Shown here: positions 49,078-50,919 of the stretch, one piece after another
Numbering within the stretch: position 1 is the stretch's first letter
Layout: each line of letters begins with the position of its first letter
Origin: Halobaculum limi
GTDB lineage: Archaea; Halobacteriota; Halobacteria; Halobacteriales; Haloferacaceae
Assembly (NCBI RefSeq): GCF_029490015.1
Contig: NZ_CP120468.1
Location: forward strand, 1,736,001-1,800,000
Direction of reading: 5' to 3'
DNA length: 64,000 bases
The notes under the pieces: generated by a model
The model's database searches: none
What the model was told of the DNA's origin: nothing
The model's input: the letters and a program-made list of their open reading frames with translations, nothing else
Made by a program: the position numbers and the translations under genes

Positions 49078-49162
49078 TGCGCGGGACCGGATTCGAACCG
49101 GCGGACCCCTATGGGACAGCGTCCTAAGCGCTGCGCCGTTGGCCTGGCTTGGCTACCCGCGC
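49078..49162 (-). tRNA. tRNA-Leu (anticodon UAG)
   Basis: Read on the minus strand: 7-bp acceptor stem GCGCGGG/CCCGCGC with discriminator A, anticodon loop CUUAGGA between CAGCG and CGCUG giving anticodon UAG, a long class-II variable arm (CCC AUA GGG) and a T-arm with UUCGAAU. 85 nt. The 3' CCA is not encoded. Confidence 0.96.
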
Positions 49163-49245
49163 TCGCCACTACCTTCCGCGATTTTCCGTAAGTACCTGTC
49201 GGACCGGGGCGAGCGTTTATCACCGGCGACGGCCGACGAGTATCC

Positions 49246-49554
49246 GTGTACCGCGCCAGCGACGAAGTGCAAAACGAGGAGTGGCTTGCGCGACTCCAGC
49301 AGGCCGCAGAGTCGCTGGAGTTGTCGGCGGAGGCGCGCTCGAACGCGACCGATCTGTTCTTGTCGGGTGTCCCCGAGTCCGACCGATCGAAGCCCGCGAT
49401 GGCGGCGGCGGCGCTGTACGCGGGCGCACTCATCGCCGGCGACGAACGCCCGCAGACTGCCGTCGCCGAGGCGATGGACGTCACTCGACTGTCGGTGCAA
49501 CAGCACTGGAAAGCCGTCCTCGAGGACGCTGGATTCCGTCCGCCGACGTGGTAG
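49246..49554 (+). CDS. Small TFB-like cyclin-box protein
   Basis: 102 residues with a GTG start. The sequence EEWLARLQQAAESLELSAEA, NATDLFLSGVP, AAAALYAGALIAGDERPQTAVAEAMDVTRLSVQQHWKAVL matches one cyclin repeat of TFB/TFIIB. There is no N-terminal zinc ribbon and no second repeat, so it cannot replace TFB at promoters on its own. It may act as a regulator or competitor of general factors. Confidence 0.78.
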   Translation: MYRASDEVQNEEWLARLQQAAESLELSAEARSNATDLFLSGVPESDRSKPAMAAAALYAGALIAGDERPQTAVAEAMDVTRLSVQQHWKAVLEDAGFRPPTW

Positions 49555-50394: not shown

Positions 50395-50919
50395 TTACCT
50401 GTCGTCCTCGTCGAACGCCGTCTCCACGGAGATGCGAACCGGTTCGTCGGTGTCCGTCCCGCCGTCGCCGCTCAACTGCGCGTCGAGGTTGAACACGGTG
50501 TTCAACTGGTCTTGGACGTCGCCGATGGCTCCCTGTACGAGATTGGCGGGTTCGATGGCCTCGTACTCGTAAGGGTTGTTGCCCGCGCCCGACGCCTCCC
50601 GTTTGGTGCGGGTGACCATCTCCTCGCCGTGGAGTTCCGCCAGCGCCTCGCGGACCGTACTCGGGTACAGTCCGGTGCCGTCTGCGACCTCCTCGCTCGT
50701 CGACGCGGGGTGTTTACGCAGATAGACGTAGATGCGTGCCCGCGTCTCCGTGTCCAACAGCCACGAGAGCAGGTCGACGATTCGCTCGTCCACCTCCTGT
50801 GTGAACTCGCTCGCCTCCTCTTCCAACCGCTCTGCGGCCTCCGTGAGGTCTGCCCGAGTCGACTCCTGGCCGATGCGGTCCGAGTCCACACCGTCTTCAG
50901 TGGGGTCATCTGGAGCCAT
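50395..50919 (-). CDS. Winged-helix transcriptional regulator
   Basis: 174 residues. A central wHTH (DTETARARIYVYLRKHPAST, ADGTGLYPSTVREALAEL, with wing TRTKREASGAGNNPYEYEAIE) is flanked by an acidic N-terminus and a C-terminal helix (VQGAIGDVQDQLNTVFN). Resembles the ArsR/TrmB-like haloarchaeal regulators. Ligand and targets unknown. It is 76 bases upstream of coaD on the same strand. Confidence 0.8.
   Translation of the reverse strand: MAPDDPTEDGVDSDRIGQESTRADLTEAAERLEEEASEFTQEVDERIVDLLSWLLDTETRARIYVYLRKHPASTSEEVADGTGLYPSTVREALAELHGEEMVTRTKREASGAGNNPYEYEAIEPANLVQGAIGDVQDQLNTVFNLDAQLSGDGGTDTDEPVRISVETAFDEDDR

Follow-up and report, generated by a model that had tools for sequence, protein, structure and literature searches.

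A single-repeat TFB-like protein of Halobacteria: a candidate DNA-binding regulator

Introduction

What can one TFB repeat do when it is encoded on its own? The question is raised by a short gene in the stretch of DNA analysed here (the window), 64,000 nucleotides from Halobaculum limi. The expansion of TFBs in haloarchaea has been studied as promoter rewiring, and excerpts of two papers count and group these factors (PMC4230888, PMC3404096). The gene described below is much smaller than a TFB, and an earlier note on this DNA had proposed that its product is a stand-alone cyclin repeat that might bind TBP-DNA and act as a repressor.

The gene and its product

49246..49554, + strand: single-repeat TFB-like gene, GTG start, TAG stop (49552-49554), coding region 49246-49551, 102 aa

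The protein matches PF00382 (TFIIB repeat) at residues 17-92 with an E-value of 3e-5 and 24.4 bits, against a curated cut-off of 23.6. This is the only PF00382 match in the 102 residues, so the second cyclin repeat is absent. All of the 35 orthologs scanned, out of 68 intact ones, match the same model at E ≤ 0.01; alignment A1 also holds 35 of the 68. Because the protein begins about 16 residues ahead of its repeat, the zinc ribbon, the B-reader/B-linker and the second repeat are all missing, and since it contains no cysteine at all, a zinc ribbon is impossible. The description in the earlier note, a single cyclin repeat of TFB standing alone and lacking the zinc ribbon, is thus borne out, and the loss of the parts with which TFB recruits polymerase follows from the sequence.

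The NCBIfam model for archaeal TFB aligns to the protein through its second repeat, at 28.8 bits compared with a full-length cut-off of 384. By sequence, the nearest solved structures are those of P. woesei TFB, across the C-terminal repeat. The composition is acidic (16 D+E vs. 9 K+R), as is usual for proteins of haloarchaea. In databases, the gene is presumably annotated as a TFIIB-family protein.

Length is nearly constant in the family, with exactly 102 residues in 63 of the 68 intact orthologs and at 76 of 80 named loci. Among ten Halobaculum orthologs (45 pairs), dN/dS has a median of 0.10 and a maximum of 0.20, and the gene is under purifying selection within this genus. Together with the distribution described below, these values rule out a chance open reading frame or a fragment.

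Predicted fold

An AlphaFold2 model built from the 35-ortholog alignment has a pLDDT of 93.5 and a pTM of 0.87, and contains six helices (residues 4-9, 11-23, 28-40, 46-64, 70-76 and 81-94). The top two Foldseek matches are TFB structures, 1d3u_B (E 3.3e-4, TMq 0.74) and 1ais_B (E 9.5e-4). With a second structural aligner, human TFIIB repeat 1 reached a Z-score of 14.6 (rmsd 2.6 across 99 residues), the N-terminal repeat of 1d3u_B 13.9 and the C-terminal repeat of 1ais_B 13.8, differences of less than 1 being ties. The protein is thus predicted to have a cyclin-like helical fold. A model that did not resemble the cyclin repeat had been named in advance as the result that would count against the proposal, and the model obtained does resemble it, with TFB and TFIIB as its best matches in the PDB. 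The modelled fold by itself does not distinguish an N-repeat from a C-repeat origin.

49453..49527, + strand: predicted helix-turn-helix (HTH; helices 70-76 and 81-94) with an altered recognition helix (R81, Q85, W88, K89), from the model, residue counts and alignment to human TFIIB 246-292

In both the model and the alignment, this HTH sits at the position of the TFB HTH. Few of the 35 orthologs are picked up by general HTH models: 5 match HTH_23, and 2 weakly match sigma70 region 4.

In six loci (L042, L051, L163, L167, L179 and L182), from lineages such as Haladaptatus and Halorussus, 4-7 residues are added between helices 28-40 and 46-64, near an RSK motif.

Probable origin from a TFB repeat

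When the repeats of P. woesei TFB were compared with the family profile, the C-terminal repeat scored 50.0 bits and the N-terminal repeat 31.6. Models made from the eight full TFBs of the window genome gave the same order: 62 of 68 orthologs scored higher with the C-repeat model than with the N-repeat one (means of 30.6 and 23.9 bits), and the other 6 scored no better with it. In a tree of 41 repeats (18 of the 68 orthologs, 15 of 28 C-repeats and 8 N-repeats), the family forms one clade, with support of 100/99, that stands apart from both N- and C-repeats; the program warned of long branches meeting and of unsettled bootstrap values. The parent of the single-repeat protein is most likely the C-terminal repeat of a TFB. 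This parentage is likely rather than proven because of the six exceptions, the separate, long-branched clade and the high structural ranking of TFIIB repeat 1.

Two other pieces of TFB were seen in the same genome. A lone, degenerate C-repeat frame of about 103 aa (C1:1614004-1614252, - strand; L095) lies about 7 kb from a full, divergent TFB (C1:1621188-1621733); it looks like a decayed TFB duplicate and is separate from the conserved single-repeat family. On the second contig, a partial repeat within a 175-aa open reading frame (C2:261057-261287, - strand; L099) is probably a decaying TFB copy.

Distribution across genomes

Full-length orthologs were found in 91 of 99 relatives. In one further Halobaculum genome (G010) the copy is disrupted, and the other seven (G049, G067, G069, G073, G082, G087 and G093), several of them incomplete assemblies, gave only TFB-level matches. 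With one disrupted copy and seven genomes lacking it among these 99, the gene is not strictly indispensable. Across the class Halobacteria, an ortholog was found with E below 1e-38 in 382 of 391 genomes (counted by eye), and G337 has a weaker match at 4.9e-23; this search gave weaker matches or none in G010, with its disrupted copy, and in G067, G069, G082, G093, G245, G371 and G390. In a sample of the phylum, 80 of 81 Halobacteria carry the ortholog at 135 bits or more, and none was found in 311 genomes outside the class, where the best match had an E-value of 5e-15. The five outside-class entries among the matches listed sit in open frames of 339-353 aa, that is, in full TFBs; a weaker, remote homolog may lie beyond the matches listed.

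Among the named carriers are Halobaculum gomorrense (93% identical), Haloferax, Halorubrum, Halobellus, Natronomonas, Halococcus, Halorussus and Halobacterium. Haloferax is a genus with genetic tools; its loci come from 11 named species, H. volcanii not being among these.

The disrupted G010 copy (L068/L184), from the same genus as the window, has been put out of frame by an internal deletion of some 100 bases, the neighbours still being present; this may be a natural loss or an assembly error. Haloquadratum walsbyi J07HQW1 has two single-repeat genes in one record (L142 and L143), the second of which lacks the convergent neighbour described below.

A mobile origin was considered and is unsupported, given that no copies turned up in collections of plasmids (searched to an E-value of 1e-8) or phages (searched to 0.01) and that none was confirmed in viral contigs. 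Vertical inheritance is inferred from this absence from plasmid and viral collections and from the conserved synteny of the locus, and an early origin in Halobacteria from a C-repeat is the simplest account.

Neighbourhood and promoter

49078..49162, - strand: tRNA-Leu (anticodon TAG), divergent neighbour
49188..49194, - strand: conserved GTAAGTA block (read on the + strand) between the tRNA and the TFB-like gene, from an alignment of 18 loci
49216..49221, + strand: TATA-like box TTTATC, 30 bases ahead of the start codon
49821..50318, - strand: phosphopantetheine adenylyltransferase-like gene (PPAT), convergent neighbour
50395..50919, - strand: HTH regulator-like gene, within the conserved convergent block

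Conservation of the neighbourhood was counted in the best 80 of 116 named loci found. The tRNA lies upstream in 68 of the 80 (within 300 bp in 46); 74 have PPAT, 63 the HTH regulator-like gene and 60 a glutamate-cysteine-ligase-like gene. A fibrillarin-like gene (FlpA-like, 45) and a Nop5-like gene (39) follow, both counts being lowered by loci that end early. The names of these protein-coding neighbours are assigned from their sequences. The convergent PPAT was looked for in 11 genomes and was present in 8; at seven of these loci neither an ortholog nor a tRNA was found within 1.5 kb on each side, and the eighth is the disrupted copy in G010. Four loci (L185, L187, L188 and L189, in G067, G082, G093 and G245) have the PPAT, HTH and ligase-like genes together, with neither the TFB-like gene nor the tRNA found beside them.

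The company of tRNA-Leu, fibrillarin-like and Nop5-like genes could suggest a role in RNA metabolism, either of tRNA or of a C/D-box RNP. The frequency of these neighbours in the named loci is in keeping with such a role, as is the finding that the four loci with the block but without the TFB-like gene show no tRNA beside it either. However, the neighbours are divergent or convergent, so none of them is co-transcribed with the TFB-like gene, gene order is generally conserved in Halobacteria, and the fold and the HTH point to DNA. We regard a role in RNA metabolism as very improbable.

Because the TATA-like box lies 30 bases before the start codon, the transcript of the TFB-like gene is likely to be leaderless. 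Of 69 loci, 36 have a TTWAD motif at -27 to -32; none was found in the other 33. The GTAAGTA block is probably the tRNA promoter. A binding site was also looked for in the TFB-like gene's own promoter, where one alignment of 18 loci gave only TATA-type blocks. The core promoters of the tRNA-Leu and TFB-like genes stand back to back in 83 bases (49163-49245), which makes this a compact candidate for autoregulation.

The idea that the gene is a decaying, functionless TFB fragment can be weighed at this point. Such pieces do seem to be present in the genome (C1:1614004-1614252 and C2:261057-261287). Against this stand the low median dN/dS, the class-wide conservation, the near-constant length, the synteny and the gene's own TATA-like box, and we consider decay scarcely credible.

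Recognition helix and family-specific residues

For residue counts, 132 distinct orthologs were aligned with 28 TFB C-repeats, 8 of which belong to the window genome. The remaining 20 were picked from the TFB matches that scored highest against the family, which biases the comparison against finding differences, and many of the 28 are near-identical, so that they are not independent. The disrupted copy (L068) and a locus without an ortholog (L069) were excluded from these counts and from the repeat-model scoring above.

Position 81, the first of the recognition helix, is Arg in all 132 orthologs and in none of the 28 C-repeats, 25 of which have Glu. Position 85 is Arg in every C-repeat; in the orthologs it is Gln (125), His (6) or Gly (1). 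At position 88, 131 of the 132 orthologs have Trp, whereas 26 of the 28 C-repeats have Tyr. At position 89, 131 orthologs have Lys or Arg, with Lys in 124. Profile alignment (query 45-91 on 246-292) places position 85 on residue 286 of human TFIIB, an Arg that contacts the BRE. The constant Arg of the TFB recognition helix is thus not kept in the single-repeat family. According to excerpts of PMC8131849, it is the N-terminal end of the final helix in each TFB repeat that makes most sequence-specific contacts, and the second HTH of TFB (HTH2) reads BREup. A fixed charge reversal from Glu to Arg at the start of this helix, combined with a near-fixed change from Arg to Gln, would look like what is expected of a new DNA specificity.

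These substitutions bear on the suggestion in the earlier note that a reduced TFB might bind TBP-DNA without recruiting polymerase and act as a repressor. On this reading the protein would be a decoy TFB, which would bind TBP-DNA, or the BRE beside TBP, in TFB's place and, being unable to recruit polymerase, would repress or tune initiation. In favour of this idea, the protein resembles the BREup-reading repeat of TFB without the polymerase-binding parts, and haloarchaea have many TFBs, with eight full ones in the window genome and 7-9 per genome among the rows listed in Table 4 of PMC3404096, as excerpted. However, residues that are constant in the TFB recognition helix are consistently replaced (Glu by Arg at 81, Arg by Gln at 85), and the first repeat and the linker between the repeats are missing. 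Much of TFIIB's contact with TBP is carried by these two parts, and a single repeat has few TBP contacts. Without the BRE-reading residues and the first repeat, the decoy idea is somewhat weakened; a repressor that binds TBP-DNA is less favoured than a non-BRE regulator, and we judge it unlikely.

Outside the repeat, two stretches characterize the family:

49246..49296, + strand: residues 1-17, an N-terminal stretch specific to the family (consensus MYRARDxVENEEWL) that could not be aligned with TFB C-repeats; includes model helix 4-9 and part of 11-23
49531..49551, + strand: conserved C-terminal tail GF-x-P-P-x-W, from the alignment and residue counts

In the N-terminal stretch, A4 is found in all 132 orthologs, Y2 in 121 and W13 in 124. 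In the tail, G96, P100 and W102 are each invariant in the 132, and the tail is family-specific except for G96, which occurs in 23 of the 28 TFB C-repeats as well. The N-terminal stretch and the tail may form a contact surface.

Such a surface would also suit a different kind of protein, a cyclin-type adaptor that makes protein-protein contacts (with RNA polymerase, TFB, TFE or another regulator) and whose HTH no longer reads DNA. Strong conservation of the N-terminal stretch and the PPxW tail, neither of which has a TFB counterpart, is what might be expected of a contact surface, and eukaryotic cyclins match the modelled fold with a Z-score of about 12. What an adaptor hardly explains is the retention of R81 (132/132), Q85 (125/132) and K89 (124/132) in a helix that does not read DNA, and this reading appears rather unlikely to us.

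A proposed regulator with its own specificity

The explanation that we favour, with about an even chance of being right, is that the protein would be a chromosomal, TFB-derived HTH DNA-binding regulator with a specificity other than BRE. Its HTH would bind double-stranded DNA via the major groove at sites that differ from the BRE. Two conserved parts, the helix at the N-terminus and the PPxW tail at the C-terminus, would serve dimerization or contact with a partner. The protein might modulate initiation at particular promoters, either by occlusion or by helping or hindering the assembly of TBP and TFB; it cannot recruit polymerase by a zinc ribbon of its own. Class-wide conservation and fixed synteny fit a dedicated regulator better than a degenerate TFB. 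A caution is that the cyclin fold, here a predicted one, is also a protein-binding fold, and that the cyclins' Z-score against the model comes near TFIIB's 14.

A bolder proposal, which we put forward tentatively and hold to be less likely than not, is that Halobacteria turned one TFB repeat into a near-universal, sequence-specific regulator with a new specificity, a TFB-derived analogue of the small HTH regulators of bacteria. Together with TBP or a TFB, it may further make up a split or heteromeric general factor, which would re-target promoters.

If the favoured explanation is true, a near-universal core gene consisting of one DNA-reading TFB repeat with a swapped recognition helix would illustrate the conversion of a general factor into a specific regulator. 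The family would in addition provide a live test of the descent of HTH regulators and sigma factors from TFB repeats that is proposed in the excerpted text of PMC8131849.

Comparison with known systems

No report on a haloarchaeal single-repeat TFB was found in a literature search that covered article listings and excerpts, and excerpts of PMC3287961, PMC4230888 and PMC3404096 contain no mention of single-repeat forms. PMC3287961, as excerpted, describes two core groups of haloarchaeal TFIIB homologs, cHOG0004 and cHOG0018, and one of these could hold the single-repeat family.

The closest relative is the C-terminal repeat of archaeal TFB, which shares its sequence and fold, including the HTH, with the single-repeat protein. 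Unlike TFB, the single-repeat protein has no zinc ribbon, linker or first repeat; it carries R81 and Q85, has its own N-terminal helix and PPxW tail and forms a separate clade.

Two other TFIIB-like proteins with one cyclin repeat are described in excerpted sources. The arCOG05559 variant of TFIIB from Pyrobaculum and Thermoproteus is likewise archaeal with a single cyclin domain (PMC4858521). However, it keeps its zinc finger and belongs to a type IV pilus-like operon in Thermoproteales, whereas the haloarchaeal protein lacks one and, in the genomes covered here, turned up only in Halobacteria. Arabidopsis AtBRF5 is also TFIIB-like with one cyclin repeat and no N-terminal zinc domain, and its function is listed as unknown (PMC7865254); it is a plant Brf-type protein with a linker, and it is likened to the haloarchaeal protein by fold alone.

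Finally, homology with the TFB repeat has been proposed for the HTH of bacterial sigma region 4 and the small HTH regulators (PMC8131849, in the excerpted text). Unlike these, the haloarchaeal protein keeps a full cyclin repeat, and the TFIIB repeat model is matched by all 35 of the orthologs scanned.
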